Below are positions 9,693 to 28,156 of a DNA stretch of 29,416 nucleotides, one piece after another. This DNA is from a virus, in the IMG/VR virus record IMGVR_UViG_3300032241_003157, positions 1 to 29,416 of that record; one strand, given 5' to 3'. The position numbers and the translations under genes are program-made. Position 1 is the stretch's first letter. Every line of letters begins with the position of its first letter. The notes beneath the pieces are model-generated. The model ran no database searches. It was not told where the DNA came from and saw only the letters and a program-made list of their open reading frames with translations.

Positions 9693-9697
9693 CTATT

Positions 9698-10525: not shown

Positions 10526-10533
10526 ATATTATT

Positions 10534-11028
10534 ATGTATAAAATTGTTAAATTTCCAAATGAAATACTTAGACAGAAAATAAAGTATTGGGATTTTAATA
10601 ATTGTCCAGAAGATCCTGTTCAATTAGAAAAAAATCTTATCGAAACTATGTTTGCAAATAATGGTATAGGATTATCTGCCAATCAAGTGGGATTACCATA
10701 CAGAGTATTTGTTATGGGTCATAAAGATATACCAGAGAATGCACAGGCGTTTTTTAACCCTATGGTTTTAAAAACTGTCGATGAGATCAAAGAATTAGAA
10801 GAGGGATGTTTGAGTTTTCCTGGTATTTTTGTTAAAATTAAAAGACCTACTAAAATTCTAGCTAGATGGCAAAATTCCCAGGGAGAATATCAAGAATCAG
10901 AATTTACAGGATATGATTGTAAATGTTTTTTACATGAATTGGATCATTTAGAAGGTATTGTATTTCAAGATAGAGCAAGTTCACTGAAATGGTCGATGGC
11001 AATTAAAAAGCTTAATAAGAGGAAATAA
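10534..11028 (+). CDS. def: Peptide deformylase
   Basis: A metalloenzyme that removes the N-terminal formyl group from nascent proteins. All three family motifs are visible: GIGLSANQ (44-51), EGCLS (90-94, metal-binding Cys 92) and HELDH (134-138, two metal-ligand His and the catalytic Glu 135). At 164 residues it is near the length of bacterial enzymes. Phage deformylases of this kind are known from marine myoviruses and may sustain processing of abundant phage or host proteins late in infection. It lies 8 nt after the DnaJ-like gene and 5 nt before the ClpA-like gene, so the three form one operon. No SD is seen at its start. Confidence 0.92.
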   Translation: MYKIVKFPNEILRQKIKYWDFNNCPEDPVQLEKNLIETMFANNGIGLSANQVGLPYRVFVMGHKDIPENAQAFFNPMVLKTVDEIKELEEGCLSFPGIFVKIKRPTKILARWQNSQGEYQESEFTGYDCKCFLHELDHLEGIVFQDRASSLKWSMAIKKLNKRK

Positions 11029-11033
11029 AATAA

Positions 11034-13301
11034 ATGTTAGAACCTAATAAAGATTTAGAAATTATTTTTGAAAATACTATTCAATTGGCAAGTACCAATA
11101 AACATGAATATATTACTTTAGAACATTTTTTATATAGCATGATTAACAATGAATCTTTTGCTAAGATTTTGACAGATTTCGGTGCAGATATCGACTCAAT
11201 GAAAACGGATCTTGAAAATTATATCAATCAAGATCTTCAAGAAATTGTAAAAGAAGGTGTAGATAAACCTAAAAAAACTATCACTGTAGATAGAATGTTG
11301 AATAGGGCATTTACACAGGTAATGTTTAGCGGTAGACAAATTATCGAACCGGTTGATTGTTTCATTAGCATGTTTTCCGAAAAGAAAAGTCATGCCAGTT
11401 ATTTCATTAATAAGGCCAAAATTGAAAAAGAAGCATTTTTAAATTTTATTAAGAGTGAATTTGTAAATGAAGAAAATATCGATGAAGCACAACCAAAATC
11501 ACAACTAGATAAATTCATTCTACAATTTTGTACAAATTTAACAGCACGAGCAAAAAATAAAAAAATTGATCCTGTAATTGGCCGAGAAAAAGAAATTGAA
11601 GAAATTCAACTTGTTTTAGCAAGAAGAGTTAAGGCCAATGCCATCTTGATTGGCGATCCTGGTGTAGGTAAAACCGCAATCGCTGAAGGATTGGCTCGAA
11701 AAATTGTTGAAGGTAAGGTCCCGACATTTATTCAGGATCATACTCTTTACAGTTTAGATATAAGTGCTATGCTAGCCGGTAGCAAATATAGAGGAGATTT
11801 CGAAGAAAGATTAAAAACTGTCATCGGAGGTTTAGAAAAAAAGGGTAAATGTATTCTATTCATCGACGAAGCACATATGATGAATGGTGCCGGTGCTTCT
11901 GGACAAAGTACCAATGATATGGCAAATATGCTAAAAAGTTCACTGGGAAAAGGAACTATCAAGGTAATCGCTTCAACAACTTGGGAAGAATATAGAAAAT
12001 ATTTTGAAAAAGATCGCGCCCTGATGCGTAGATTTCAACGAGTTACAGTCGATGAACCCGATGAAGATACCGCAATTAAAATCATTAAAGGTATTAAAAA
12101 ATATTATGAAAAACATCACGGTGTAAAAATTACTAATCAGGCTGTTATTGATAGTGTGAAATATTCTGTGAAATATATCAGTGATAAAAAATTACCAGAT
12201 AAAGCAATTGACCTCATTGATAGAGCCTGTGCTAGATTTAAAGTTAAAGACGAAACAACAGGAGTTGTGGATCACGAAGAAATTCTTTTTGAAATTAGTA
12301 AAATATCTGGTATTCCATTCGAACAGATTACCAATAAAGAAACAAATAATCTTTCAGAATTAGAAAATAATATGAAAGGAAAAGTATTTGGGCAAGATTT
12401 GGCTATTAATTCACTTCTTGACAAGGTGTTTATTGCACAATCTGGACTTAAATCACCTGACAAACCAATTGGTAACTTTTTGTTTGTTGGGCCTACTGGG
12501 GTAGGTAAAACTGAAGCTGCAAAACAATTAGCAGAAAATCTTGGTGTCAAATTAATTAGATTTGATATGAGTGAATATCAAGAACAACATAGTGTAGCAA
12601 AATTTATCGGAGCTCCTCCGGGATATGTAGGTTTTGAAGATAATGCAGGGCTACTAATAACCAAACTACAAGAAAATCCAAATTGTGTATTACTACTCGA
12701 CGAGGTGGAGAAAGCTCATCCTAGCGTTCTTACCGTATTGCTACAACTCATGGATAATGGGTTCGTAACAGGAAGTAACGGTAAAAAAGCAGATGCAAGA
12801 AACGCTATTCTAATCATGACCAGTAATCTCGGCGCAGTAGATGCTGAGAAAAATTCTGTAGGATTTGGATCTTTAGAAAGAGATGGAGATCCTAAGGACG
12901 CTGTGAATAGGTTTTTTGCTCCAGAATTTAGAAACAGGCTCGATGGTGTTATTAAATTTGGAAAGTTAGATAAAACAACAATGGTAAAAATTGTTGATAA
13001 ATTTATTAAAGATCTTAATGAGCTTGTAAAAGATAAAAATATTTTTATTAAACTATCACAATCTGCTATCGAATATCTTGTTGATAATGGGTTTAACAGT
13101 AAAATGGGTGCCCGACCTTTGCAAAGAACTATCGATAATTTAATTAAAAAACCACTTAGCAAAGAAATTTTATTTGGAAAATTAGTTAATGGTGGCGCTG
13201 TAGAAATTGATACAGAAAATGAAACCTTAAAATTAAATGTTATCGAATTGATGCCTGTTCCTACAGTTGAGGATCAAATTGAAGAAGCAGACAACATCTA
13301 A
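11034..13301 (+). CDS. clpA: ClpA-like AAA+ unfoldase
   Basis: A 755-residue Hsp100 protein. An N domain (about 1-140) is followed by two AAA+ modules: Walker A GDPGVGKT (207-214) with Walker B ILFIDEAH (274-281), then GPTGVGKT (486-493) with VLLLDEVE (552-559). A pore-loop region GAPPGYVG (526-533) and the [10 protein letters not shown] end are also present. There is no long M-domain between the modules, which excludes ClpB and fits ClpA/ClpC. A VGFG tetrapeptide (609-612) sits where ClpA carries its IGL/IGF ClpP-docking loop, so it probably docks on host ClpP; no clpP is in the window. The RBS is AGAGGAAA. The gene could be used to redirect host proteolysis. Confidence 0.92.
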
Positions 13302-13947
13302 ACTATTTTACAAAAAATGGTTATATAAAATAGATTGTATGTGCAATGGAGCACATATGATCAAACCTTATGGTATTCCATACTGTAAATCTTTTTGTGC
13401 AGAGGACGAAACTGATAGCTATTATTATAGAAAATCTATAAACAAATCAAACCTTCTTGAATTTATCAATATTATTGAACCTTATTTTTATCAAAAAGGT
13501 CGACTTCAATTTAGATCAGAAAGATCCTTTTTTAATATTTTTACCAATGATCGAGAAGTCTACGATAAACTTTGTCATGAGCTAAAAAAATATCTCAGAG
13601 CAATACATGAGCCAAAAAATGACCAGGAAATAAAATTTCTTCAGGAAAAACATAACAAAATCTTATGTAATCATATACCATATAAAAAATATAATTACAA
13701 GATACATATTAAAAATAATATACCTCTTTCTTTTAAAGAAAAGTTCAAAATATGGATATCACATTACGATAAAATTTATGCTCCATTTACCGTTAAAGAA
13801 TGGTTATCATCATCGTATAATGTTTACTTTCAAATACCCTATGTTTACGCCGAGGATCAACCTACTTTAACAATGATAAGCTTATTTTTAGGAGATTATT
13901 TAAAAAAGACCGAACAATTTGTTGTTAGATCAGGAATAAATATCTAA
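13279..13947 (+). CDS. Conserved phage hypothetical protein (222 aa)
   Basis: The likely start is TTG 13279, preceded by GAGG 6 nt upstream and overlapping the clpA-like gene by 23 nt; TTG 13267 is a weaker option. It opens [20 protein letters not shown], a basic/aromatic N-terminus of a type seen in conserved cyanophage hypothetical proteins. The rest is Lys/Tyr/Phe-rich with mixed helices and ends VRSGINI. I see no catalytic motif or membrane segment, and its function is unknown. No ATG occurs near the beginning of the frame, so a non-AUG start seems required. Confidence 0.65.
   Translation: MKKQTTSKLFYKKWLYKIDCMCNGAHMIKPYGIPYCKSFCAEDETDSYYYRKSINKSNLLEFINIIEPYFYQKGRLQFRSERSFFNIFTNDREVYDKLCHELKKYLRAIHEPKNDQEIKFLQEKHNKILCNHIPYKKYNYKIHIKNNIPLSFKEKFKIWISHYDKIYAPFTVKEWLSSSYNVYFQIPYVYAEDQPTLTMISLFLGDYLKKTEQFVVRSGINI
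13935..13942 (+). promoter_or_regulatory. Possible late promoter variant AATAAATA
   Basis: AATAAATA lies within the end of the preceding gene, 21 nt before the ATG at 13964. It differs from the T4 late consensus at the first base only. It would fit late expression of the next, structural-looking gene. Confidence 0.3.
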
Positions 13948-13963
13948 TAAACAAGGAAAAATT

Positions 13964-14386
13964 ATGCCAAGTCTAGCTCAAGGATTAGAGTTTATTACCT
14001 ATACAAACACAGCAAGCGTTCAGGTAGTTTATCCACTTTATACTTCAACAGGGCAGACATTGGTGTATAAAAGTATACAAGCTCAGGGCGATGGATATTT
14101 CGGTAGTCCGGATGGATTGCATACAGTTATGTATACCTATGACAGCAATTTTATAGGTACTATTACCATGCAAGCTACACTGGCTACCGAACCTCAAGAA
14201 TCAGATTGGTTTGATATAGAGGGAACTACCTTAGTTCAAACCAGCAGCAGTGCATTTTTTAGTTATAATAACTTGGATGTACTGGTTCAATCTCAATATT
14301 ATAATTTTACCGGTAATTTTGTTTGGGTTCGAGGCTATGTAGCAATCGAAAACGGACAGGTAGAATCAATCCTTTACAATCACTAA
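13964..14386 (+). CDS. Probable virion structural protein (140 aa)
   Basis: The protein is Thr/Ser/Tyr-rich and predicted to be all beta, with ESDWFDIEGTT around residues 72-82 and NFTGNFVWVRGYV around 117-129. The SDWF..., NFTGNFVWVRG pattern is typical of small beta-sandwich virion proteins in marine T4-like phages. The Leu/Ile/Tyr-Asn-His ending (VESILYNH) is also characteristic. It has no signal peptide. The RBS is AAGGA. Which virion part it belongs to cannot be told. Confidence 0.65.
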   Translation: MPSLAQGLEFITYTNTASVQVVYPLYTSTGQTLVYKSIQAQGDGYFGSPDGLHTVMYTYDSNFIGTITMQATLATEPQESDWFDIEGTTLVQTSSSAFFSYNNLDVLVQSQYYNFTGNFVWVRGYVAIENGQVESILYNH

Positions 14387-14407
14387 TAATTCAAATAATT
14401 ATCATTG

Positions 14408-14415
14408 TATAAATA
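14408..14415 (+). promoter_or_regulatory. T4-type late promoter motif TATAAATA
   Basis: An exact TATAAATA lies in the 50-nt gap before the gene at 14437, 21 nt before its ATG. It is placed to drive the series of genes from 14437 onward (small basic protein, EF-motif protein, 1126-residue fusion) as late genes. Confidence 0.6.
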
Positions 14416-14436
14416 CTCTATACGGAGAGTGTTTGT

Positions 14437-14853
14437 ATGCGTATTTCTGACATTTTAAATTTTCAAAATGATCATATTCAAGAGGGAGATAGTTTTTCAA
14501 TTGAATTAGATGATATTATTTTAGAAAGTTATGTTGTAGGATTTACCGATGATGGTATTATTATTGAAAGCGACGAGTTTATGCTAGGGTATTTGACTAC
14601 AGATGATTTAACAGAGGCCAAATATCATGGAAAAACAGTACCATTAGGTAAGCCCATGGCGGGAGATGTTAAAAAATCTAAAGTTTATGTGAAAAAACCA
14701 AATGGTAATGTTGTTAAAGTAAACTTTGGCGATAAAAATATGCGTATTAAAAAGTCTAATCCTAAACGCCGTAAAAGTTTTAGAGCAAGACATCATTGCG
14801 AAAATCCAGGTCCGAGGTGGAAAGCAAGATACTGGTCATGCAGAAAGTGGTGA
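14437..14853 (+). CDS. Small protein with conserved basic Cys/His C-terminal domain (138 aa)
   Basis: The N-terminal half is acidic and beta-rich (DSFSIELDDIILESYVVGF). The C-terminal half is a compact, strongly basic module: LGKPMAGDVKKSKVYVKKP, NVVKVNFGDKNMRIKK, then KRRKSFRARHHCENPGP and ending WKARYWSCRKW. This C-terminal module recurs in many T4-like phages in head-associated contexts, but its function is not known to me. The RARHHC...WSC arrangement could bind metal or nucleic acid. The start MRISDIL fits the short N-terminal motif of the neighbours, and HIQE-G near residue 14-18 resembles a prohead protease site. It is expressed from a late promoter motif; the RBS is GGAG. Confidence 0.7.
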   Translation: MRISDILNFQNDHIQEGDSFSIELDDIILESYVVGFTDDGIIIESDEFMLGYLTTDDLTEAKYHGKTVPLGKPMAGDVKKSKVYVKKPNGNVVKVNFGDKNMRIKKSNPKRRKSFRARHHCENPGPRWKARYWSCRKW

Positions 14854-14857
14854 TAAT

Positions 14858-15232
14858 ATGTTATTAAAAGAATTTTTCGGAAAAGGTATAGATCCTATTA
14901 AAATGTCCCATAAAGATGGGCATGGAGATAGAATTAATGACGAACTATTTTGGTTTATAATTGACCACGACAAGCTTCATAAAGATTATTTTCATCCATT
15001 AGCCGTGAAAATTAAAAAATCATTTGAAAGTAACAAAAACGATAAAGAAAAATTTGTTAAAGAATTTATGCCTATGGTCAAAAAAGGATGTAAAGAATTT
15101 TATATACATAAAAAAATGAAAGGAAGTTTAGGACATGCCTTTCCTGAGGAACTAAGAAAAGATATGTGCGAAAGACTTTTCGACCACTACCGCGAAGATA
15201 TTATCAAAGAAAAATATAAAGTAGGTGCGTAA
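14858..15232 (+). CDS. EF-motif N-terminus protein, unknown function (124 aa)
   Basis: ATG 14858 is chosen because it starts the MLLKEFF motif shared with the next gene (MILREFF) and avoids a 128-nt overlap with the upstream gene that the longer frame would need. The protein is highly charged (Lys/Asp/Glu) and helical, with HKDGHGDRINDELFWFIIDHD and YIHKKMKGSLGHAFPEEL; His-rich segments are notable. No family is recognised. It ends 1 nt before the start of the 1126-residue fusion, indicating tight coupling with it. Confidence 0.65.
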   Translation: MLLKEFFGKGIDPIKMSHKDGHGDRINDELFWFIIDHDKLHKDYFHPLAVKIKKSFESNKNDKEKFVKEFMPMVKKGCKEFYIHKKMKGSLGHAFPEELRKDMCERLFDHYREDIIKEKYKVGA

Positions 15233-15233
15233 C

Positions 15234-18200
15234 ATGATACTGAGAGAATTTTTCAAACATTCTAAACTCTTTGAAGGTGGAAATTTAGAAATCGATGGTG
15301 CACAAGCACAGCAAATCGATCTCAAAGTACATAACAGAGCCTACATTATCCCTATTCTAAATACTTTACTCAATTCTATTAATTCAGAATTTCAACAGAG
15401 TACAGGCGGGCCGTTATGGAATCCCAAGGTTCTTAAAAGTCGCAAATATCTAAGTGGATCTAGTCCACATTTTTTTAATACAGATATATCAGATGATGAA
15501 TTTGAACGGATTAAACCTAAAGTAGGAGATATCGATACACAAGTTAACAAAGAAACAGAACCACAATTATCTCAGTGGCTCGAAAGTGTAAAGGGGCAGG
15601 TTGTCGGTAATGCTAAGTTTTTAGGATATAGTAGAGGTAATGAACAGTACAGTAGTTTATGGGAATTAACCGATCCTCCTATAAAAGTTCAGATCGACTT
15701 TGAATTTGTTGAATACAGTGAAAAAGATGAACCAACTGATTGGGCAGGATTTAGTCATAGTAGTAGCTGGGATGATCTAAATCAAGGTATTAAAGGCGTA
15801 TTTCACAAATTCTTAATACAATCTCTATCAAAAATGTCTTCAAAAGATTTTATATTTAGAAAAACCCATACAAGAACAGGAAAAGTTACAGATAAGGTCG
15901 AAAACGATAGCATGATTACCTTTGCCGTAAGTAGCAAAGAGGGCGGAGGACTTAGACTAAAGTACAAACCGGTACTAGACAACAATGGTAAACCTTTAGA
16001 AATAGATGGATTACCTGTACTAAAAGAATTACCAACAATTGGTTACGAAAGAGATATCAGCAAAATTTTTCAAACAATATTCGACAAAAGAATTGATAGA
16101 GCAGAATTAGCCAAAGTTTTACCAAACACATGGAGTTTTACCGGTCTATTAGATATTATGAATGTGATTCTTACTACTGAAGAAAAAGAACAGGTATTAG
16201 ATTCATTTGTTGATAAGTTATTTGCTCCTGGTGCACAAGGTCTATATAAAGGAGATCCTGAACGAGATCTTAAAGAAAAAAATACTGCTCTTAACTATGC
16301 ATTAAAAGTACTTGATATAGCACCTCCTAAAAACTTAGAGCAAATGCGTCAAGATTATGTCAAGAACTATAAGGTAACTACAGAAGGACCGGTTGGTTTA
16401 GATAGTCCTATTGAAGAAGCAGATGAGCAGCAACCAGTTGTCAAAGCACAATTGCGTAAAGGTATGCCACATCTGCGTGATTTAAAACCTGCAGACTTTT
16501 TAGATTTAGTAGATGAACTACACAGTGAGGGAGGTCGTTTCAAATTAGAAAACATTCCTCTTAATGTCAAGATAGACGGTTTCGGAGGTCGGTTCGGTAA
16601 GAATGCATCCGGTGCTCCGTTTATGGGTACCAGCAGAACCGAACCTCGTTATAAGGCAGGTTTCTTAAAATATCGTCAAGAAAAAGGAACAACAGATCCA
16701 GAAGTACTAAACAGAGCTAAATTGTTCGATGATCTGTTCGATGAAATGATGACTGCAATTAAAGCAGTGGATTCTAAATTAGGATCTGACTTTTTAGTAG
16801 ATAAACAGGTCACTTGCGAGGTATTATTTTTACCATTTGCCACACAAACAGAGGAAGGTAAACTAAAATTTGTCGGTATTGAATATGATCAACTACCAAA
16901 AGGTGTTAATCTTGTACTTGTTCCATTCCGTGTTGTAAAAGCCAGTACAGGTGAAGATGTCCCCGACAATGACGAAATAATTAAATCCTTAACCGATGTT
17001 GGTCAAAGCGGTAGTGTAATGTTTATCAGTAACCGATTGAAACAAAAACAAGGGTTAGATGTTACTGAGATTATCGACCCTTTAGACAATATTGAAGAAT
17101 TAAAAAATATTGTAGCAGGTACATCTGGTAAAAGAGATAGAGCAAGCATACAATTAAGAAAAGAAATTGAAGAGAAACTCAAACCGGTACAGATAGCCTT
17201 AGAAAAAGCTATAGATGAAGATCCAAACATTATTGGTAAAGATTTGTTGGGTAAAAATTATGAAGGTATTGTTATCAACAGTCGTTTAGGTCCAATTAAA
17301 GTAACTAGTCAACAACAAAAAGATATTATTGCTAAGAAAAATGCAACCAGGGCTGCAACTCACATTGAACAACCTAGACAAAATATTAGAAAAACTGCGG
17401 TAGTTGCTATAGGTAGTTTTATTGGACATAAAGGTCACGAAGAATTATTCAATTACACAATTAATAAAGCCGAAGAACTAGGTGGAGATCCTTATCTGTT
17501 TATAGGAAATGCAGAAGGAAAGGATGATCCTATTCCTACATCTGTTAAAGTGGAAACATGGCACAAACTATATCCCGAATATGCACAAAATATCAGTGCA
17601 GTTATGCAAGGCGGTTCCTTGATACAAAAGATCAAGCACGAATTAATTAATCCTCTTCCTGGAAAACCTCCTCGGTATGATAATATTATTATCATGGTAG
17701 GTGAGGATCGTGCAGGATTAACCATGCCTGCTGCGCTGATGAAATCTGTAAATAAATTCCCCGGATACGAACATGTTAAAGTAAGTTTAGATGTTACACC
17801 TCGTGGTACTGGTATCAGTGGAACTATGCTGAGAAATAGTCTAAAAAACGAAAGTCCAGAAAAGGCATTAGAAACTTGGTCAAATGCTTTTGATGTTAAG
17901 AAATTAGGTATTAGCTGGATTAAACATTTAATGGATGTTACGAGAAAAGGAATGGGCATTATCAAACCTGAACAAAAACAACAATCAGTATCTGAAACTC
18001 GATTATTCAATGCATTGATTAGAAATAACTCTAAGGTCAATGAAGAATTGGAATATTCCAAAAGAAATAAACTTATCAGTTTAATTCATAAAATTAAGGG
18101 TTGGGGTACTGCTGAACTTTCCTTGTTAAGTGATGAAGAACTATTAGATATAGTAAAGGGAATCAAAGCTGAAAGAAGTAAAGATCTGGATGAAAAAATG

Positions 18201-18614
18201 ATGGATCCTCATATATTTGCAGGATATGCTAGAGGGCAAAAACCTGGAGATATGTGGCGTGGTACAGACAAAGGACCCCCGGGAAATAAAGCATTTGGTG
18301 AATCTACCAAAAAAGGTGTGGCGGAAGTTTCTAAAACTAAAAAAAATCACAATGAATTTGAAGATCACAGTACCATGAGTAGGGCGGGTACAGGTCTGCC
18401 TGGGAACAAACCCGGAACCATAGGACCGAGTAACTACACTGATCAATCTAATTTCCGTGATCCACAAGGAATTTATGAAATAAAAAATCAAATAAAACAA
18501 TCGTATAAAGAAAAATCATCGGCCTTGATTCCTGTCAGTGAGGATATACAGAAGATATTTGATACATTAATTAATAAAATTATTATAAATGAAGCAATAC
18601 AAGATAACAAGTGA
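15234..18614 (+). CDS. Multidomain nucleotidyltransferase fusion (NTase + ligase-like + HxGH cytidylyltransferase-like)
   Basis: I use ATG 15234 (MILREFF, the motif shared with neighbours); a GTG at 15225 would add only three residues. Three modules are visible in 1126 residues. (1) About 70-160: GSS (75-77), GDIDTQV with Asp 99 and 101, and VQIDFEF with Asp 155, the pattern of polymerase-beta-type nucleotidyltransferases. (2) About 440-700: VKIDGFGGRF with candidate nucleotidyl-Lys 446, CEVLFLP (528-534), EGIVI (677-681) and IKVTS (688-692), matching motifs I, III, IV and V of ATP-dependent polynucleotide ligases. (3) About 720-890: GSFIGHKGHE (HxGH at 732-735) and GISGTMLR (860-867), the HIGH and ISSTxxR motifs of the nucleotidylyltransferase superfamily. 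Glu-Ala/Glu-Gly sites lie in the linkers, and the C-terminus has GVAEV and EDHSTM. Module assignments are by motif only; the substrate is unknown. Confidence 0.75.
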   Translation: MILREFFKHSKLFEGGNLEIDGAQAQQIDLKVHNRAYIIPILNTLLNSINSEFQQSTGGPLWNPKVLKSRKYLSGSSPHFFNTDISDDEFERIKPKVGDIDTQVNKETEPQLSQWLESVKGQVVGNAKFLGYSRGNEQYSSLWELTDPPIKVQIDFEFVEYSEKDEPTDWAGFSHSSSWDDLNQGIKGVFHKFLIQSLSKMSSKDFIFRKTHTRTGKVTDKVENDSMITFAVSSKEGGGLRLKYKPVLDNNGKPLEIDGLPVLKELPTIGYERDISKIFQTIFDKRIDRAELAKVLPNTWSFTGLLDIMNVILTTEEKEQVLDSFVDKLFAPGAQGLYKGDPERDLKEKNTALNYALKVLDIAPPKNLEQMRQDYVKNYKVTTEGPVGLDSPIEEADEQQPVVKAQLRKGMPHLRDLKPADFLDLVDELHSEGGRFKLENIPLNVKIDGFGGRFGKNASGAPFMGTSRTEPRYKAGFLKYRQEKGTTDPEVLNRAKLFDDLFDEMMTAIKAVDSKLGSDFLVDKQVTCEVLFLPFATQTEEGKLKFVGIEYDQLPKGVNLVLVPFRVVKASTGEDVPDNDEIIKSLTDVGQSGSVMFISNRLKQKQGLDVTEIIDPLDNIEELKNIVAGTSGKRDRASIQLRKEIEEKLKPVQIALEKAIDEDPNIIGKDLLGKNYEGIVINSRLGPIKVTSQQQKDIIAKKNATRAATHIEQPRQNIRKTAVVAIGSFIGHKGHEELFNYTINKAEELGGDPYLFIGNAEGKDDPIPTSVKVETWHKLYPEYAQNISAVMQGGSLIQKIKHELINPLPGKPPRYDNIIIMVGEDRAGLTMPAALMKSVNKFPGYEHVKVSLDVTPRGTGISGTMLRNSLKNESPEKALETWSNAFDVKKLGISWIKHLMDVTRKGMGIIKPEQKQQSVSETRLFNALIRNNSKVNEELEYSKRNKLISLIHKIKGWGTAELSLLSDEELLDIVKGIKAERSKDLDEKMMDPHIFAGYARGQKPGDMWRGTDKGPPGNKAFGESTKKGVAEVSKTKKNHNEFEDHSTMSRAGTGLPGNKPGTIGPSNYTDQSNFRDPQGIYEIKNQIKQSYKEKSSALIPVSEDIQKIFDTLINKIIINEAIQDNK

Positions 18615-18894
18615 AAATATACCTAAGGATACTTCAGACGATTGCTATATCGACCCTGCAGATCCTGTAAATGAATTAAAGATAGTACAATATCTTGCAG
18701 GGTTAGGCTCGGCAGCTAGACTACAAGAATACAGGGCAAAAACAACCCAAGATATTAGTGATAGCAATATAACAAAAACTGCTAGCGAAAATGCTCGCAT
18801 TATGCGAGAACAAAACATTAAACCGGGTACTCCCGAATGGTTCAAACTTTGGTTTTCAAAACAATTCATGACCGGAGAGAAGCCTATTAATTAA
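18589..18894 (+). CDS. Conserved small T4-like phage protein (101 aa)
   Basis: It overlaps the large fusion gene by 26 nt. It opens MKQYKITSENIPKDTSDDCY, continues DPADPVNELKIVQYLAGLG, and ends with PGTPEWFKLWFSKQFMTGEK. The terminal PGTxEWFKLWF...TGEKP signature is conserved among marine T4-like phages next to GVAEG-bearing proteins; I know no function for it. No membrane segment is present. Its stop is immediately followed, in convergent orientation, by the end of the minus-strand homing-type gene. Confidence 0.7.
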   Translation: MKQYKITSENIPKDTSDDCYIDPADPVNELKIVQYLAGLGSAARLQEYRAKTTQDISDSNITKTASENARIMREQNIKPGTPEWFKLWFSKQFMTGEKPIN

Positions 18895-19283
18895 GACTTG
18901 GTTACTTTATTTTTGCACTTTTCCCTGTGTTTGCTACCTGTTCCGTTATACCATCCATCCGGACATTCTAAACTTTTTACAGTATCAATTCCATTAGTCC
19001 ACCATCTTTTTCCGTAACTAGGATTGTTTTTTCCTAAATGATGTTCGTTTTTACGATTTGTCTCAAATAGGCGTTCTTTAATATATGGAGCCCTACCTCT
19101 TTTCCATCCTTTAGGACATTCTATGCTTTTTATTTCCGAAGAGCCGTCGGTCCACCAATACTTTCCAGATCCTAAATATTTGTTAGGATCGAACTTTGCA
19201 GTTTTACAAAAGTATAAAAGTCCTGTTATTTTATGACGTTTAATCATTAGCCAAGTAGGCTTAAATTTATTATAAATAAACAT
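18891..19283 (-). CDS. Homing-endonuclease-like protein, shortened (130 aa)
   Basis: ATG 19283 is preferred over 19328, since the family-like part starts at FKPTWLMIKRHKITGLLYFC. This resembles the opening of T4-like homing endonucleases (KPTYL.IK.H..TGL.YFGKT, then DPNKYLGSGKYW). In place of the catalytic core, the protein passes straight into two similar C-terminal units, KYWWTDGSSEIKSIECPKGW and RWWTNGIDTVKSLECPDGW, that look like DNA-binding repeats. The Gly of the YFGKT-type motif is Cys. It is therefore probably an internally deleted, cleavage-defective element. It is inserted on the opposite strand between two rightward genes, 4 nt overlapping the end of the left one. Confidence 0.65.
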   Translation of the reverse strand: MFIYNKFKPTWLMIKRHKITGLLYFCKTAKFDPNKYLGSGKYWWTDGSSEIKSIECPKGWKRGRAPYIKERLFETNRKNEHHLGKNNPSYGKRWWTNGIDTVKSLECPDGWYNGTGSKHREKCKNKVTKS

Positions 19284-19343
19284 GCTGATTGCTCCTAGTA
19301 GCATTAGAGTAGTTGGGGTTTCTGACACCCGCGAACTACGCTT

Positions 19344-19363
19344 TTATTTATTTGAATAAATAA
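19344..19363. repeat. 9-bp palindrome upstream of the Dps gene
   Basis: TTATTTATT (19344-19352) and AATAAATAA (19355-19363) form a perfect inverted repeat with a 2-nt centre, ending 4 nt before the dps ATG. It contains AATAAATA on both strands, one base from the late promoter consensus, and replaces any Shine-Dalgarno. It may be an operator or simply A/T-rich spacer. Confidence 0.4.
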
Positions 19364-19367
19364 CAAT

Positions 19368-19823
19368 ATGAACGATTTATCACAATTACAACAATTTGCA
19401 AAAATATCTTTTGCCAGTACATATAGTTTTGCTATTAAAAGTCAAAACTTTCATTGGAACGTAATTGGTTCGGATTTCTTTGAATATCATTCTTTATTTG
19501 AAAAAATATATCAAGAAGTTTATGAATCTATTGACAATTTTGCCGAAAATATTCGCAAATTAAAGGCGTATACTCCGGCTAGTCTTAGCCGTTTTAGTAT
19601 GCTAACTAAAATCGAAGACGAAACCGAAATTTTACCAGTTGAAGCGATGGTTAAAGAATTACTAGACGACAATGACCGTATGTTGGTTATTTTGAAGAAA
19701 ACTTATGATGCAGCCGAAGCAGCAGGTAAACACGGTTTCAGTAATTTTTTAGCCGAAAGAATGGATGCTCATGAAAAACATGGTTGGATGCTTAGAGCCA
19801 GCAGCAAAGGACAGCAGTTATGA
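19368..19823 (+). CDS. dps: Dps-like ferritin (DNA-binding, iron-oxidising)
   Basis: A 151-residue Dps-family four-helix protein. The ferroxidase ligands are all present with E. coli spacing: His 29 (FHW), His 41 (EYH, +12), acidic residue 45 (Glu, +4), Asp 56 (SID, +15) and Glu 60 (AEN, +19). Residues SQNFHWNVIGSDFFEYHSLF give the family signature. Dps 12-mers oxidise and store iron, detoxify peroxide and coat DNA. The N-terminus is short, without the Lys-rich DNA-binding tail of E. coli Dps. It has no SD. The next gene starts in an ATGA overlap, so it belongs to the operon of modular capsid-type proteins. Confidence 0.88.
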   Translation: MNDLSQLQQFAKISFASTYSFAIKSQNFHWNVIGSDFFEYHSLFEKIYQEVYESIDNFAENIRKLKAYTPASLSRFSMLTKIEDETEILPVEAMVKELLDDNDRMLVILKKTYDAAEAAGKHGFSNFLAERMDAHEKHGWMLRASSKGQQL

Positions 19824-20191
19824 GAGCACGAGAATTCATCGACGAGGCTAAAGATTATTCTGGGCAGCAAGGTATGCACAAAGATTGGTCCAGTGTTATT
19901 CCCAATGGTCACATTTATCCAGAATTGGATAATAGTTCCGGGTATCTTGCATACAGATTCGGTGTTGCGGTTGCAGGGATGCCCAACCAAAAAATGGATG
20001 TCGCAGGTCCCACAGGATTGAAAATGGTAACTATAGGTTATACCCCAGCCGATGAAGAAATACTCAATGCTGCATCAAAGTTAGTAGGAACACCCAAAGT
20101 TAAATTAACTTCAGATCGCAGCACAGAACCTCAAGGGACTTACACCAGAAGTCCTGTATCAAATTGGAATCCAAGGAATAATAAGAAATGA
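19820..20191 (+). CDS. Small protein with capsid-targeting-like N-terminus (123 aa)
   Basis: It starts MRAREFIDEAKDYSG, very like the start of T4 internal protein IPIII (MKTYQEFIAEA), where the prohead protease cuts after the Glu. IDE-A fits the (I/L)-x-E-(A/G) rule. The rest contains SSGYLAYRFGVAVAGMP, GPTGLKMVTIGYTPADEE and a basic C-terminus; this is a type seen in marine T4-like phages without known function. Both ends have ATGA overlaps (with dps upstream and the 855-residue gene downstream), so translation is coupled. An internal head protein is my inference. Confidence 0.7.
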   Translation: MRAREFIDEAKDYSGQQGMHKDWSSVIPNGHIYPELDNSSGYLAYRFGVAVAGMPNQKMDVAGPTGLKMVTIGYTPADEEILNAASKLVGTPKVKLTSDRSTEPQGTYTRSPVSNWNPRNNKK

Positions 20192-22755
20192 AAAATCACG
20201 AATTTAAAATTAAAAAATTCAAAGACTCCACAGTTTATACATTAGAAAGTGCAAGTAGCGGTGGTACCAGTGCAGGCAGTATTTCTTCTACAAATTCACC
20301 TGTTGGAAAATTACAGAGGCGGAACAGCATTATTGTTCAAGATGGGCAAGAACTAGACGAATTGAAAAGACCCAGCGGTTCTATGTTTCTTAAGTTTAGA
20401 GTTAAAACACTACCTGATGATGAAAAGACCATAATCGCCTATGGTGGATTTGGAACAACTCCTGCAGATGTTACCGTAAAAACTGCTAAAATTAAACCAT
20501 TCGATGCTAATGATACAGGGGAAGTTATAGTTAGAATAAAAAAATTATTAGCAGATAGAGATTTTATCGGTGTACAAAAAATTTATTTAGATATTCCCAA
20601 TGGTTTAAAACCTCGTCTAGAAGATTTAATTGATTATACCGAAAATGATGAAAGATTAGAATTATATAGTGCAGAAGATCATGACACCGATGATGAAACT
20701 GGAGGTGGTCAAACAGCTTATTATGTCAATGGCAAAAGAGTCAGTATACCGGGAAAACCACAAGCCCAGGTAGCGGGTTCAAGCCGTGGTGTTGCATCTA
20801 CAGGTATGGTGTCAATTAATGCAACCGATGATGGACAAAGATTAATCAAAGCATTAATATCTCAAAATAAATTAAGCAGAGATACTAAATTAGTTGGAAA
20901 TAAAATCACACTTAGAAAAGATGACTACAAAAAAATATTGAATACATTAGGCAATGATCGATTCCAACAGTATTTTACAAAAAAATCTGAAATCAGCGAA
21001 AAAGGTGTAGGAGAGGATCATAGTACAATGACGCAAGGTTATGGTCGGGAATCGGCCAGTACAGGAATGGCGTTTTCAAATCGTGCTAAAGGTGCTATCC
21101 CTGAAGAAAAAACTAGATTAGACCCATCATGCTGGTCTGGTAAAAAGATTGGAAATCCTGAAACTAAAGTAAAAGGTGGTGTTAGAGTTAATAATTGTGT
21201 TCCTAAAGAATCATATCAACTGGATGAATATGAAACCCATACCTTTACAGACCGAGAAGGAAATGTTTGGCGAGTAGATGATGAAGGGAATCGAGAATTG
21301 GTTAAGGGTGTCGGAGGTTCAGGAACCAGAACAGGCGGTAGCAGAGCCGGTCGTTCTGATGATTCTCCTTACAATCTGAAAAATAAAACCACTGGAAAAT
21401 TGCTCTTACAAAAAGGCACACAATCTCCCGCAGTGTTTAATGGTCTTCAACATGCACTGAATGTGGCTGCAAAATTACAATTTGGCAGTTGGGAACCGGT
21501 TCGTGCAACCATGGAGGAAGGTGTAGCGGAAGGCTCCAATAATGGTGGAACTCCATTTAATCAGGAGACTAATTTAAGATCTAAAACACCAAAACAATTA
21601 GCAGCATTGCTTGAATATTGGAAGAAAATATTAAAAACAGCTAACGATCGGGAAGATTGGAGGACAGCCGAGAGAGCCGATGAGCAAATACAATTAATTA
21701 AAAAGATCTTGGCCGGAAGAATTGGCAAAAAAGATATGGGAAAAGACTCAGGTGCCTTTATTAATGAATTTGCCCCCGATGATAACGATAGAGACGGTGG
21801 CGGTGAACGATTTTCATTCCAAGAAGACATTGATAGTAATGATGAAAAATATCTAATAGAAATTTATTATGAGGAAGATAGCGGTTCATATGCCGTTGCA
21901 TTTCATGAAAAACGAGGCAATCGACAGTATGTTATGTATCCCGTTGACAATGTCGATCCTGACGATTTAGCAGATGGTGCAACCGAGTATGTTCAAGATA
22001 TTATTACAAATGTAAAACGAGGTAGTACCGAAGATTTTGTAGCACCAAAAAATATGGAACTTGAGGAATTTATTCCGCCCCAGCAAGGTGTGGCGGAAGG
22101 CTCAGAAGACTCACTTCCTGCCGGATACGGAGATTATTCTAACGGTGCAACTAATCCAGATAGAACTGCATCGGCACAGAGACAAGCAGATAGGGAATTT
22201 GATCGAAGAGAACACGAACGCAAAGAAAAAGAGCGTAAAAATAAAGGTGTAAAAGGCCCAGATGATCTTGAGACCCATCAAAATCCAGATCCTAACGAAT
22301 ATGATATGGAGGGGGATTTTGTAAAAAATCAAATACATACCATTGTTCGTGCAGCTACTGAGTTGGCCGACGAAATCAATGACGATGATAACTTGCCAGA
22401 ATGGGTTGAAGAAAAAATAAGTCAAGCAAAAGGTATGTTGGTTAGCGTTATGAACTACATGATGAGCGAAAAAGAAAAACAAGATGATTTATCTCAATCA
22501 AATTTTGATGAGAATGATCAGTATTTCGAAACCCTTGATCAAAAGTTAAATAACTTGATTTCAGAAAAAGCATTAAGTAAAAGTATGCAAAGATTTATGG
22601 GTATGGTACATGCAGTTCAAAAAGGAGATATGACTGCACCAAGCCCGGCTGTGGCAAAAGCAGCTAAGGGAATGAGCATGAAGGCGGCACACGATTATGC
22701 TGCCACAACACATGCAGGTTTACCAGAAAAGAAACGAGCATCAAAAAAAAAGTAA
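20188..22755 (+). CDS. Large modular protein with GVAEG repeats (855 aa, in-frame part)
   Basis: This is a mosaic of short modules rather than one fold. An N-terminal alpha/beta part (about 60-265) is followed by GVGEDHSTM (273-281) and DPSCWSGKKIG...KGGVRVNNCVPKE (312-341). EEGVAEGS (443-450), a helical unit (467-510), an acidic unit and QQGVAEGS (632-639) come next. The C-terminal part has EYDMEGDFVKNQIHTIVRA...NLPEWVEEKI (704-744) and LSKSMQRFMGMVHAVQKGDM...GLPEKK (796-849). These last modules recur in unrelated marine phage proteins. The GVAEG units look like prohead protease sites. The frame ends in AAAAAAAAAGTAA; a further 61 residues continue in the -1 frame. It is coupled by ATGA to the preceding gene. 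The role is unknown; internal head protein is likely. Confidence 0.7.
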   Translation: MKNHEFKIKKFKDSTVYTLESASSGGTSAGSISSTNSPVGKLQRRNSIIVQDGQELDELKRPSGSMFLKFRVKTLPDDEKTIIAYGGFGTTPADVTVKTAKIKPFDANDTGEVIVRIKKLLADRDFIGVQKIYLDIPNGLKPRLEDLIDYTENDERLELYSAEDHDTDDETGGGQTAYYVNGKRVSIPGKPQAQVAGSSRGVASTGMVSINATDDGQRLIKALISQNKLSRDTKLVGNKITLRKDDYKKILNTLGNDRFQQYFTKKSEISEKGVGEDHSTMTQGYGRESASTGMAFSNRAKGAIPEEKTRLDPSCWSGKKIGNPETKVKGGVRVNNCVPKESYQLDEYETHTFTDREGNVWRVDDEGNRELVKGVGGSGTRTGGSRAGRSDDSPYNLKNKTTGKLLLQKGTQSPAVFNGLQHALNVAAKLQFGSWEPVRATMEEGVAEGSNNGGTPFNQETNLRSKTPKQLAALLEYWKKILKTANDREDWRTAERADEQIQLIKKILAGRIGKKDMGKDSGAFINEFAPDDNDRDGGGERFSFQEDIDSNDEKYLIEIYYEEDSGSYAVAFHEKRGNRQYVMYPVDNVDPDDLADGATEYVQDIITNVKRGSTEDFVAPKNMELEEFIPPQQGVAEGSEDSLPAGYGDYSNGATNPDRTASAQRQADREFDRREHERKEKERKNKGVKGPDDLETHQNPDPNEYDMEGDFVKNQIHTIVRAATELADEINDDDNLPEWVEEKISQAKGMLVSVMNYMMSEKEKQDDLSQSNFDENDQYFETLDQKLNNLISEKALSKSMQRFMGMVHAVQKGDMTAPSPAVAKAAKGMSMKAAHDYAATTHAGLPEKKRASKKK

Positions 22756-22937
22756 GTGAAACTGGTGCAGAGCAATTAGATGAAAAAATTCCTGCAAATG
22801 CACCAGTTGATGTTTGGATCAAGGATTTTCAACAATCAAACGCTAAACAATTTAGAGGTAAAAATCTAAGAAAAAGAGAACAAATGGCAAGAGCAGCTAG
22901 CTATGCGGCTAAAAATCCAGATAAAAAGAAAAGATAA
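22743..22937 (+). other. Out-of-frame C-terminal extension (61 codons) behind an A9 slippery run
   Basis: After A9 (22743-22751) the -1 frame stays open from 22752 to TAA 22935-22937. It encodes VSETGAEQLDEKIP, then PVDVWIKDFQQSNAKQFRGK and a basic end PDKKKR. This P...W..DF..S....F.GK module is one often seen at ends of phage structural proteins. The frame has no ATG, GTG or TTG start between its upstream stop (22665) and an internal ATG only 17 codons from the end, so it must be reached from the upstream frame. Its stop overlaps the deaminase start as TAATG, as expected if ribosomes really arrive in this frame. A -1 programmed frameshift or slippage, or a one-base homopolymer error, would explain it. 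Confidence 0.7.
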
Positions 22938-23443
22938 TGAGATTGAACGAATTTGATCAAGATGATTATATAATTAAAAATAGAATTAAACTTGATCGAA
23001 TTCTAGTGGAACTTTGTCACCATATTATCAAAGGACAAAAACAGGATCCTAAAAAATATGGAATAGTAGCTGCTGCTGTAATAGATCCTGATGATAAAAA
23101 AGTTTATGGTGTAAATGAGTTATCAGAAGATGATAAAAGAAAACATGCCGAACGAGTTGCCATAGATAGATATAAAAAACACTATGGAGAAATTCCTCCG
23201 GGTAGCATTATAGTAACAACATTGAGTCCATGCAATGAATATGGTAGCGAAATGGCCGGCCAAAGATACGGCGAAAGTTGCACAGATTTAATCAACGAAA
23301 GTCAATGTAGAAAGGTCTATTGCGGTTATATAGATCCAAGTCAACATAATGATCATCAAGAATATACATTGGAAGAAACTACCAATGAACATATTAAAGG
23401 TCTTTGTAAAAAATTTGCCGATACTTTTTTGAAAGAAAAATAA
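22937..23443 (+). CDS. Zinc-dependent deaminase-like protein (168 aa)
   Basis: A cytidine/deoxycytidylate-type deaminase fold: KYGIVAAAVIDPDDKKVYG (40-58), HAE at 70-72 (zinc His and catalytic Glu), and LSPCN with Cys 99 plus Cys 115 as remaining zinc ligands, then KVYCGYIDPSQ. The Pro-Cys to Cys spacing is 15 residues, whereas PCxxC is standard. RYGESCTDLI is a family-like segment of marine phage homologues. The substrate could be a free (deoxy)cytidylate, a pterin/riboflavin-type intermediate or a base in nucleic acid. It starts MRLNEF, like its neighbours, in a TAATG junction with the preceding frame. Confidence 0.75.
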   Translation: MRLNEFDQDDYIIKNRIKLDRILVELCHHIIKGQKQDPKKYGIVAAAVIDPDDKKVYGVNELSEDDKRKHAERVAIDRYKKHYGEIPPGSIIVTTLSPCNEYGSEMAGQRYGESCTDLINESQCRKVYCGYIDPSQHNDHQEYTLEETTNEHIKGLCKKFADTFLKEK

Positions 23444-24557: not shown

Positions 24558-24950
24558 ATGAGTTATGTTGATGCCATCTGGTCTAAAGATGAAGACTCCA
24601 TTAGAGTAGTGGAACGAGATCCTAAAAAAGGAAGAGTTTATCAAGATTTTCCAGCTCGATATGTATTTTATTACCCTGATTCTAAAGGAAAATATCGATC
24701 CATCTATGGCGATAGTCTCTCTAGAGTAACTGCTAAAAGTTTTAAAGAATTTTCTAAAGAACAAAGAATTCACAGCGGACACAGACTGTTTGAAAGTGAT
24801 ATTAATCCTGTGTTTAGATGTCTAGAAGAAAACTACTTAGGCAAAGAACCACCTAAATTGAATGTGGCATTCTTTGATATCGAAACTGATATGCAACCTT
24901 TTGCAGTATCATCTCAGTATATGGTCCGTATTCGAAAAAAGAAAAAATAG
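24558..24950 (+). CDS. 43: DNA polymerase gp43, N-terminal part (gene split)
   Basis: The N-terminal 115 residues match a T4-like family B polymerase: VDAIWSKDEDSIRVVERD, YYPDSKGKYRSIYGDSL, and the exonuclease I motif NVAFFDIETD (about 102-111), which carries the catalytic Asp and Glu of proofreading. After MQPF the frame leaves the polymerase, reads AVSSQYMVRIRKKKK and stops. The rest of gp43 resumes 0.9 kb downstream, so the gene is interrupted inside the exonuclease domain. RBS AGGAG. Either it is spliced with the downstream part, or a 130-residue peptide must assemble with it. Confidence 0.88.
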   Translation: MSYVDAIWSKDEDSIRVVERDPKKGRVYQDFPARYVFYYPDSKGKYRSIYGDSLSRVTAKSFKEFSKEQRIHSGHRLFESDINPVFRCLEENYLGKEPPKLNVAFFDIETDMQPFAVSSQYMVRIRKKKK

Positions 24951-25825
24951 TTTTTGATATTGAAGTAGATAGACTAAATAATTTATAATAGGAACAATTA
25001 TGAATTACGAAAAAATCTACCATAACATTATTAATAATGCTAGCACAAGAAAAAAAGGGCCAGGGATTGAAAAACATCATATCGTGCCTAGAAGTTGTGG
25101 AGGGTCAGATGATAAATCTAATCTTGTTTATCTAACTACAAGAGAACATTTAATTTGTCATTTACTATTAGTTAAAATATATAAAAATAATTCGGTGTTT
25201 CGAAAGAAGATGATATATGCTCTATGGTGGATGGCAAAGACAAGAAACTGTGTTAATAATTGCCGAATAACAAGTCGGACCTATGCACTAGCAAGAGAAG
25301 AATTTATTAGAAATAACCCAAATAATTGTGAAGAAAGAAAAAAAAGATTCACAGAAAACCATAAAGCAGGAAAATACAAATATAATTATAAAAAAGTAGG
25401 ACAAACTTTAAAAGAAACATTGCAGAAGTTAAGCAAAGAAGAAATGATTGAAAGGATGAGATCATCAGCATTATCTTGCGATCATAAAAAAAGAAGAGAT
25501 TCTATTAGAAAGGGAAAAGCATCTCATTTCTGCTTAACTAATATTGATAATACCAATGTAGAATTTTGGTCGTACGATGATGTAAAAACAATAACAGGGT
25601 ATGATTATGGTCAGATACTATATAGGATAAAAAAATACAACGGCAAGATGCCAAACGGGTCTACCATAAAATACATATCAAAATATAGAGGAAATGATGG
25701 AAACATTGGAAGAAAAAGAAATAACAGTATTCGAGTTAAATCAATTACAAAATCGAGATGACTACGAAGTATGGGATGATATTAAGAAACAATGGGTTAA
25801 TATACACAGTTGTAGATACCTAGAG
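24903..25825 (+). mobile_element. Homing element interrupting gp43 (group I intron or freestanding insertion)
   Basis: The limits are inferred by joining the two polymerase halves. Cutting after TTT 24900-24902 and resuming at CCG 25826 gives a continuous MQPF-PGPGYASPEDAF in frame, 891 residues in total (T4 gp43 has 898). These limits have the U-before and G-before-exon bases that group I introns use. The element holds one HNH endonuclease gene. I could not find convincing P/Q/R/S core sequences; only AGACTAAAT at 24971-24979 recalls an R-type element. A freestanding insertion with two separate polymerase ORFs is the alternative. Confidence 0.6.
25000..25761 (+). CDS. HNH homing endonuclease inside gp43
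   Basis: 253 residues with an HNH nuclease centre at the N-terminus: IEKHHIVPRSCGGSDD (His 26-27), N41 in KSNLVYLTT, and His 50 in REHLICH. A basic, helical middle (RKKRFTENHKAG, NYKKVGQTLK) and a C-terminal FCLTNIDNTNVEFWSYDDVK unit of the DNA-binding repeat type follow. It should cut gp43 alleles lacking the element and spread it by repair. A TAGGA RBS precedes the ATG, and CTAAATAA (24974-24981), close to the late promoter motif, lies 18 nt before the start. The 3' end overlaps the second polymerase frame by 68 nt. Confidence 0.85.
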   Translation: MNYEKIYHNIINNASTRKKGPGIEKHHIVPRSCGGSDDKSNLVYLTTREHLICHLLLVKIYKNNSVFRKKMIYALWWMAKTRNCVNNCRITSRTYALAREEFIRNNPNNCEERKKRFTENHKAGKYKYNYKKVGQTLKETLQKLSKEEMIERMRSSALSCDHKKRRDSIRKGKASHFCLTNIDNTNVEFWSYDDVKTITGYDYGQILYRIKKYNGKMPNGSTIKYISKYRGNDGNIGRKRNNSIRVKSITKSR

Positions 25826-28156
25826 CCGGGCCCAGGTTATGCCAGTCCTGAAGATGCCTTTATGCCTATCACGGCTATTGCTATTCACTTACAATGGTTA
25901 GATACACTGGTGTGCTTAGCAGTACCGCCAAAAACTCTAACCATGGCCGAGGCCCAAGATCAAGTTAAAGAATTTCCAAATACAATTTTGTTTGAAACAG
26001 AGTACGAGATGCTCGATACATTTTTGGATCTAATCCAAGATGCTGATGTATTAAGTGGTTGGAATAGTGAAGGGTTCGATATTCCTTATACGGTAAATAG
26101 GGTTACCAAGGTTTTATCAAAAGAAGATACAAAAAGATTTTGTTTATGGAATGCTTTACCTAAAAAAAGAGAATACGAAAAGTATGGAAAAACTGCTATC
26201 ACTTATGATCTGGTCGGCCGTATTCACCTTGACAGTCTCGAGCTGTACAGGAAGTATACTTATGAGGAACGCCACACTTACAGGCTCGATGCAATTGGAG
26301 AAATGGAAATAGGTGAAACTAAAACAGTTTACGAAGGAACATTGGATCAACTATACAATAACGATTTTCGCAAATTTATCGAATACAATAGACAAGACTG
26401 TTCACTGTTGAATAAACTTGATAAAAAATTAAAATTTATTGATCTCGCTAACACAATTGCACATGAAAATACCGTTCTGTTGCCTACCGTTATGGGTGCT
26501 GTTGCGGTCACAGAACAAGCCATTATTAATGAAGCACACCATCGTGGACTAATAGTCCCTAGTCGTATCAGAAAAGATGATCGAGATGATACACAGGCTG
26601 CAGGTGCCTATGTTGCCTATCCTAAAAAAGGAATTCATGATTGGATTGGATCCATGGATATTAACAGTCTATATCCCAGTGTGATTCGTGCACTAAACAT
26701 GGGACCAGAAACCATTGTAGGACAACTAAGACAAGATTACACAAAACAAGAAATTGAAACAAAAATGGCCAAGGACAGTAGTTTTGCCGCTGCATGGGAA
26801 GGAAAATTTGCGGTCAATGAATATGAATTTGTAATGGATCAAGATAGATCCCATGAAATAATTATCGACTGGGAAAACGGAAACACGGATATTATGAGTG
26901 GGGCTGAAATATACAAGTTAATCTTTGAAAGCAATAAACCTTGGATGTTAAGTGCCAATGGAACCATTTTCAATTACGAGCAAGAGGGTATTATTTCAGG
27001 ATTATTGAAACGGTGGTACTCGGAAAGAAAAGAATTACAGGCCAAGCTCAAAGATGCAATTAAAGCTGAAAATAAAATTGAGGAAGAATATTGGGATAAA
27101 AGACAGCTTGTGAAAAAAATTAATTTGAATTCTCTTTATGGAGCAATTTTAAATTCCGGATGTAGATTTTTCGATAATCGAATTGGTCAGTCCACTACAC
27201 TAACTGGAAGGGGAATTGCCCGCCATATGGCATCAAAAATAAACGAGGTAATTACTGGGGAATACAATCACATAGGCAAAGCAATCATTTATGGAGACAC
27301 CGATTCTGCTTATTTCAGTGCATATTCTACATTAAAAAATGAGATCTCTAAAGGAGAAATTCCTTGGGATAAAGAGACCGCAATTAAACTTTATGATACA
27401 ATCGCAGAAGAAGTTAATGGTACCTTTCCTCAATTCATGCTAGATGCTTTTCATTGTCCCAAAAGTAGAGGTGAGGTTATTCGAGCAGGACGAGAGATTG
27501 TTGCTATCAAAGGTCTTTTTATTACAAAGAAAAGATATTCGGTACTTTATTTTGATAAAGAGGGAAAAAGACAAGATATAGATGGCAAACCTGGTAAAAT
27601 CAAAGCCATGGGGCTTGATCTTAAACGCAGCGATACACCTGAATTTATGCAAAAATTCCTGGAAGAAATTCTCGCTCGTGTTCTAAATGGTGCAGAAGAA
27701 AAAGAAATTCTCGACCGCATTATGGAATTTAGAACAGAATTCAAAGCAAGACCGGGTTGGGAAAAAGGAAGCCCTAAACGAGCAAATAACATCACCGAAT
27801 ATGAAAATAAGGAAAAGAACGCAGGAAAAGCCAATATGCCAGGACATGTTAGGGCAAGTATTAATTGGAATACACTTAAGAAAATAAACGGTGACAAATA
27901 CTCTATGCAAATTGTCGACGGAATGAAGGTAGTTGTTTGTAAATTGAAACCTAATCCCTTAGGGTTCACCAGTGTAGCATATCCTACAGATGAACTAAGA
28001 TTACCCAAATGGTTTCAAGAATTACCATTCGATCATGCAGAAATGGAAACTGTTATTATCAATAATAAGTTGGAAAATCTTATCGGTGTATTAGAGTTTG
28101 ACCTTGATAGTACCGAGGAAAATTCAACCTTTAATTCATTATTTTCCATCGAATAA
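25694..28156 (+). CDS. 43: DNA polymerase gp43, C-terminal part (exonuclease II/III and polymerase domains)
   Basis: Family B polymerase from residue 45 (PGPGYASPEDAF) on. Visible motifs are Exo II GWNSEGFD (122-129), Exo III YNRQD (231-235), motif A DINSLYPS (322-329), motif B KKINLNSLYG (474-483), motif C YGDTDS (533-538) and a KKRYSVLYF segment. All catalytic residues are present. The first 44 residues (METLEEKEITVFELNQ...) have no polymerase character. They are either intron read-through or, if translation starts at ATG 25694/25697 behind AGAGG, a new N-terminus. Without Exo I (in the upstream part) proofreading should fail unless the halves are spliced or associate. The product replicates the phage genome together with gp45 and gp44. 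Confidence 0.92.
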   Translation: MMETLEEKEITVFELNQLQNRDDYEVWDDIKKQWVNIHSCRYLEPGPGYASPEDAFMPITAIAIHLQWLDTLVCLAVPPKTLTMAEAQDQVKEFPNTILFETEYEMLDTFLDLIQDADVLSGWNSEGFDIPYTVNRVTKVLSKEDTKRFCLWNALPKKREYEKYGKTAITYDLVGRIHLDSLELYRKYTYEERHTYRLDAIGEMEIGETKTVYEGTLDQLYNNDFRKFIEYNRQDCSLLNKLDKKLKFIDLANTIAHENTVLLPTVMGAVAVTEQAIINEAHHRGLIVPSRIRKDDRDDTQAAGAYVAYPKKGIHDWIGSMDINSLYPSVIRALNMGPETIVGQLRQDYTKQEIETKMAKDSSFAAAWEGKFAVNEYEFVMDQDRSHEIIIDWENGNTDIMSGAEIYKLIFESNKPWMLSANGTIFNYEQEGIISGLLKRWYSERKELQAKLKDAIKAENKIEEEYWDKRQLVKKINLNSLYGAILNSGCRFFDNRIGQSTTLTGRGIARHMASKINEVITGEYNHIGKAIIYGDTDSAYFSAYSTLKNEISKGEIPWDKETAIKLYDTIAEEVNGTFPQFMLDAFHCPKSRGEVIRAGREIVAIKGLFITKKRYSVLYFDKEGKRQDIDGKPGKIKAMGLDLKRSDTPEFMQKFLEEILARVLNGAEEKEILDRIMEFRTEFKARPGWEKGSPKRANNITEYENKEKNAGKANMPGHVRASINWNTLKKINGDKYSMQIVDGMKVVVCKLKPNPLGFTSVAYPTDELRLPKWFQELPFDHAEMETVIINNKLENLIGVLEFDLDSTEENSTFNSLFSIE

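Follow-up and report, generated by a model that had tools for sequence, protein, structure and literature searches.

The window analyzed here is the whole of virus record IMGVR_UViG_3300032241_003157, a stretch of 29,416 bases, and the operon under study occupies positions 14437–23443 of its plus strand (Table 1). Genes for a DNA polymerase, relatives of which were found, and for sliding-clamp-like and clamp-loader-like proteins mark the source as a T4-like phage. The polymerase gene (24558–28156, +) is split into an N-terminal part (24558–24950) and a main part beginning at about 25.8 kb, and an ORF with an HNH-like start (25000–25761) sits between the two, as if an intron carrying a homing endonuclease were present. 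A cluster of DnaJ-like, peptide-deformylase-like and ClpA-like genes (9698–13301, +) and a GroES-like gene (1897–2235, +) suggest that this phage brings much of its own protein-folding machinery.

The box ahead of the operon (TATAAATA) is tentatively regarded as late-promoter-like; it is not enriched across the window as a whole. Inside the operon a minus-strand ORF (18891–19328) carries repeated WWT(D/N)G...ECP(K/D)GW motifs and possibly specifies a homing-endonuclease-associated protein. A Dps/ferritin-like protein (PF00210; 19368–19823, +) is encoded among the tagged genes described below, in a neighbourhood kept in several relatives. The start motif of those genes is absent from both this protein and the protein at 18589 of the same operon.

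Table 1. Features of the operon and its upstream region (a hyphen within a site marks the predicted cut)
Feature	Position	Strand	Remarks
T4-late-promoter-like box TATAAATA	14408..14415	+	21 bases before first operon gene (protein A)
Protein A	14437..14853	+	138 aa; variable N-terminal part with four gp21-like sites, then conserved basic C-terminal domain
Predicted site DLTE-A of A (P1 E60)	14605..14619	+	Just before conserved domain; LxE-A conserved
Protein B	14858..15232	+	124 aa; start MLLKEFF; without nearby cut site
Protein C	15234..18614	+	1126 aa; leader, Pol-beta-like nucleotidyltransferase, ligase-like domain, HxGH nucleotidyltransferase, C-terminal extension
Predicted cut site 1 of C, LFE-GG (P1 E14)	15267..15281	+	E, G, G, N invariant in 16 homologs
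Pol-beta-like nucleotidyltransferase domain of C	15276..16373	+	Approximate limits; phrog_19290; invariant GDID...D
Predicted cut site 2 of C, PIEE-A (P1 E395)	16407..16421	+	Interdomain linker; (LIV)xE-A in 16/16 homologs
Ligase-like domain of C	16440..17333	+	Approximate limits; KxDG, EGxV motifs
HxGH nucleotidyltransferase domain of C	17376..17948	+	Approximate limits; phrog_3041
Seam-like word AAAGGTGTGGCGGAAGT in extension of C	18312..18328	+	Encodes KGVAEV; 2 mismatches to 17-mer
Protein E	19820..20191	+	123 aa; start MRAREFIDE-A; homolog comparison
Predicted site FIDE-A of E (P1 E9)	19835..19849	+	Glu conservation in homologs
Protein F	20188..22755	+	855 aa; modular polyprotein
Capsid-protein-like junction VYTLE-SASSGGTSAGSISS of F (P1 E20)	20227..20295	+	Likeness to gp23 junction
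Seam GAAGGTGTAGCGGAAGG in F	21517..21533	+	Encodes EGVAE-G
Seam CAAGGTGTGGCGGAAGG in F	22084..22100	+	Encodes QGVAE-G; exact consensus
Protein G	22937..23443	+	Deaminase-like (PF00383); start MRLNEF; without nearby cut site

Internal head proteins of T4 start MKTYQEFIAE-A, and gp21 cuts at (I/L)-x-E-(A/G/S). The original prediction held that products of this operon share a comparable short N-terminal motif ending in (E/D)(F/I), with early Glu-Gly/Ala sites after it in several of them. The six quoted N-termini are all present, in A (14437, MRISDIL), B (14858, MLLKEFF), C (15234, MILREFF), E (19820, MRAREFI), F (20188, MKNHEF) and G (22937, MRLNEF). Among the proteins of the window and six related records, whose genes were called by a simple script that may have misplaced some starts, (E/Q)F(IVLF)xE falls within the first 10 residues in 12 of 919, against 0.6 expected, and these belong to six families; the tag is thus common to unrelated proteins, as it is in T4. 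With a looser form of the motif the contrast was far smaller (18 families versus 2–15 at control offsets). Comparison with relatives shows the starts of B, C, E and F to be conserved: M(L/K)LxEFF is kept in 18/18 homologs of B, and the homologs of E mostly retain MRAxEF(I/V) followed by Glu-Ala. The claim of a common motif stands for these proteins; MRISDIL of A has no EF.

The window is a fragment from which gp21, gp22 and gp23 are absent; all three are present in relatives, and gp21 (PF03420) together with gp23 (PF07068) was found in 13 of 21 related records. Between their portal and gp21 genes, relatives encode a protein of about 82 residues that opens with MILREFIYF or MLLNEFIYF, and proteins related to it were confirmed in 181 IMG/VR stretches. 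The start pattern reaches well past the window, and by position and likeness this protein ties it to the prohead core.

When 889 proteins were ranked by their excess of (LIV)xE(AGS) over their own shuffles, the gp22-like scaffolds of 6/6 related records fell in the top 15; the ranking was not told of them and so recovers expected substrates blind. Protein A ranked second of the 889. The total count in the window's protein F was not above its shuffle. The conserved domain of A is also present in cultured Pelagibacter and Roseobacter phages and in phage C48C1, and the LxE-A ahead of it is conserved in L032, L006, C48C1 and HTVC008M, two cultured phages among them. HIQE-G (E16) of A was rejected as a conserved site, its relatives reading LRTG and IRQG. 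In E the Glu of the site is nearly invariant in 23 homologs despite a varying distance from EF, and its EFIDE-A resembles EFIAE-A of T4. The early Glu-Gly/Ala sites as first proposed accordingly survive in C (LFE-G) and E (IDE-A) but not in A. A site of the form (L/I/V)xE-(A/G/S) follows the tag in C, E and F, and is not found near the tag in B and G.

Two sites are conserved in protein C. Site 1, (LIV)xE-GGN, comes after a leader of variable length in an alignment of 16 homologs. At site 2, (LIV)xE-A, the Glu and the following Ala are kept in the same homologs while P2 varies, within a linker of very variable length; the IEE-A which had been pointed out between the first two modules of this protein is therefore a conserved feature. 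An AlphaFold2 model (mean pLDDT 82) has long segments below 50 only at residues 1–15 and 381–402, which coincide with sites 1 and 2. First-domain homologs in Vibrio phage pv27 and Xanthomonas phage X1 begin with MGGN, that is, exactly after site 1, and in that of Campylobacter phage IBB_35 a short leader runs up to FILE-GGN. Phage X1 encodes the nucleotidyltransferases in distinct but adjacent genes.

Each of the three folds of C has motif residues that do not vary among the 16 homologs (GDID...D; KxDG with EG; HxGH with S..LR). Fold comparison matched the HxGH domain to FAD synthetase, PPAT and NMN adenylyltransferase; overall the matches to C were these nucleotidyltransferases and tRNA, RNA and DNA ligases, with modest E-values (3.5e-5 to 1.5e-2). 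Of the proposed cargo, the deaminase-like protein G, which has EF but lacks a nearby site, is a weak candidate.

Phage C48C1, a cultured relative by gene content, carries genes for a ligase-like protein and a cytidyltransferase, both of whose starts are T4-like (MLDFKNFITE and MIKNFSQYLLE). Positions 9116–20231 of its record (L201) hold, besides MLDFKNFITE, the starts MKKFKQYIDE-G, MKDFFELRE-A and MKKFTEIRE-A, and similar ones. These gene starts are closer to the T4 tag, and the same kind of cargo operon may exist in marine phages.

Leaderless homologs, together with the ClpA-like ATPase gene upstream, could be taken to mean that the infected cell is the only place where the proteins act, their N-termini and Glu sites being signals for another protease or chance occurrences with no relation to the head. 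We consider this very improbable: the sites of C are invariant inside otherwise variable linkers, the same consensus is enriched in gp22, and protein F carries a copy of the gp23 junction.

The last point had gone unnoticed in the original prediction, as had the GVAE seams at 18312, 21517 and 22084. The start of F copies the presumed maturation junction of the major capsid protein (YxLE-SAxxGGTSAG). F and its homologs open with, for example, VYTLE-SASSGGTSAG or RYVLE-SATGGATS, which resemble RKYLAE-SATAGATSAGNVAT in gp23 of the same phages; from its position relative to that of T4 gp23, we infer that gp23 is cut at this junction. A profile built from 34 gp23 junctions and run over 11,492 ORFs matched the start of many small proteins, such as MKIRDILE-SATAGATSSGNIAT (best E 1.8e-8), and more weakly the homologs of F (E about 1e-5 to 1e-1). 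Small proteins of 58–90 residues which combine the tag with capsid-junction sequence (MKIRDILESATAGATSSGNIAT...) are widespread (L238, L448, L102, L422 and others). With full-length F as query few relatives were found, and its homolog in L017, a module chain with seven GVAE sites in 863 residues, had no match among isolates.

Both F and the extensions of C consist of modules strung together through QGVAE-G, and a single DNA word, CAAGGTGTGGCGGAAGG, codes for this joint. QGVAEG ranks with the most frequent words in the pooled proteins and occurs mostly in F homologs and C extensions; no mention of GVAEG was found in the phage literature searched. In 106 distinct copies the seam reads CAA GGT GTG GCG GAA, two of these triplets, GTG and GCG, being little used elsewhere in these phages (11% and 8% of their codons). 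Among 114 seams defined on the protein level, with mutually unrelated flanks, conservation is limited to about 18 bases. The exact 17-mer was found in at least 120 stretches of IMG/VR (contig counts here include closely related phages), and in the newly fetched loci 98/98 copies, among the matches listed, fall inside an ORF and are read in the QGVAEG frame. In 122 copies with 1–2 mismatches the Glu codon shows 17 synonymous and 0 non-synonymous changes, and the Gln codon 42 non-synonymous ones; about a third of the variant seams have a P1' residue other than G/A/S. From the pattern of codon changes and the flank-limited conservation, both the DNA word and the Glu appear to be constrained. An internal translation start at the seam was rejected, as no consistent start codon follows it.

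The rare codons and the persistence of a 17-mer between unrelated flanks are also what one would expect if the seam were a DNA element only, a joint for recombination or for mobile elements, whose reading as QGVAEG is accidental and in which cutting plays no part. The constant frame of the listed copies and the absence of non-synonymous change in the Glu codon speak against this explanation, as do the sites of A, C and E, which share the cut consensus without any such DNA word; we hold it to be improbable.

Exchange at the seam is evident from comparison of the chains, in which modules have many neighbours and similarity stops abruptly at the in-frame 17-bp word encoding the cut site. For one widespread cassette, identity drops at the seam from 0.8–0.9 inside to about 0.3 outside, and the cassette has 14 different neighbours on its left and 27 on its right. 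Where alignments between seam proteins end, the end point is close to a seam in 22–25% of cases versus 9% for random positions. The start motif is present in 31/54 seam ORFs versus 109/442 of their neighbours, and an early gp21-like site in 23/54 versus 56/442. A Pfam scan of nine polyproteins gave few named domains (a GNAT acetyltransferase and some DUFs), many modules being short and without a named domain. The AlphaFold model of the most widely shared cassette (pLDDT 47) was not used; the DGAHR motif of this cassette may recall ParB-like folds. The recombining agent would likely be the phage's own recombinase, acting on short homology. Of five related records, possibly fragments, two have a RecA-family protein, and in T4 UvsX-dependent joining occurs at repeats of 3–13 nt (PMC8262927).

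Taken together, the sequence comparisons indicate that the operon probably encodes capsid-targeted cargo, processed by the prohead protease and built from exchangeable cassettes. The tag M(R/K/L)xxEF(I/V/F) would direct each precursor into the prohead core, as does the T4 capsid targeting sequence, which is 10 residues long (PMC9026906). Cutting after Glu in (L/I/V)xE-(G/A/S) by a gp21-type protease is strongly supported by site conservation; it would remove the tags and separate fused domains, yielding from C a leader, the Pol-beta-like nucleotidyltransferase and a pair of the ligase-like domain and HxGH nucleotidyltransferase, and would cut F and the extensions of C at their GVAE-G seams. 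The products, presumably packaged into heads, would leave with the DNA at ejection and become active immediately, the three nucleotidyltransferases of C perhaps in repair or modification of nucleic acid or a cofactor. The targeting and trimming originally proposed are well supported as inferences by the conserved tags, the invariant sites in variable linkers, the capsid-junction copy, the presence of gp21, gp22 and gp23 in relatives, and the leaderless homologs that start at the predicted mature end. The absence of a nearby site in B and G, the unconserved HIQE-G of A, the site count of F, the variant seams with P1' other than G/A/S and the untagged Dps-like protein count against this reading.

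Entry into the prohead and cutting might also befall core components, fragments of which exit the head or remain inside it as packing peptides, with no effector delivered. T4 gp67 and gp68 are cut to fragments which mostly leave the head (PMC9026906), many of the modules here are short and without a named domain, and a likely core protein, the neighbour of portal and gp21, has the same tag. On the other hand, the motif residues of the three enzyme folds in C do not vary, and most cassettes differ greatly between phages, unlike core proteins. We regard delivery of cargo as the better reading and this alternative as unlikely.

Like IPI, IPII, IPIII and Alt of T4, the operon has diverse products sharing a short N-terminal EF(I) tag and a predicted cut after Glu, in phages whose relatives have gp21, gp22 and gp23; T4 internal proteins are likewise diverse, only the capsid targeting sequence being conserved (PMC3012670). 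Unlike them it includes multi-domain fusions with internal sites, cassette polyproteins, a DNA-conserved seam and a copy of the gp23 junction. In phiKZ/SPN3US-type head ejection proteins a gp21-like protease also cuts after Glu, removing propeptides of head proteins (PMC10052503), but nearly all sites are in N-terminal propeptides and no repeated internal seams like the present ones are described. The polyvalent proteins of phages and conjugative elements (Iyer et al. 2017, PMC5512222) are large, multidomain and thought to enter the host with DNA; C likewise has three nucleotidyltransferase-type domains in one polypeptide. Here, however, the cut sites fit a head protease, and the available part of that paper does not describe a 17-bp seam. 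A zincin-like peptidase domain is common, though not universal, in polyvalent proteins, and Pfam scans gave no peptidase family here. The cassettes also invite comparison with the T-even gp38 adhesins and their glycine-rich motifs, since in both short conserved coding motifs flank the segments exchanged. Gp38 is, however, a single tail adhesin without a protease site.

The cassette polyprotein arrangement with its DNA-conserved seam is the larger finding and more unusual than the single sites. We are evenly divided as to whether the 17-bp seam is at once a recombination joint and a translated prohead-protease site, such that any module inserted there would automatically be packaged and released as a separate protein. 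If this is true, cassette shuffling is how a widespread group of uncultivated phages assembles and varies the proteins that it injects, and the cargo of such a genome could be read from its tags and seams. This would provide a sequence rule for early-acting phage proteins that otherwise pass as hypothetical, and proteomics could then directly address a question of long standing, namely what T4-like heads contain.
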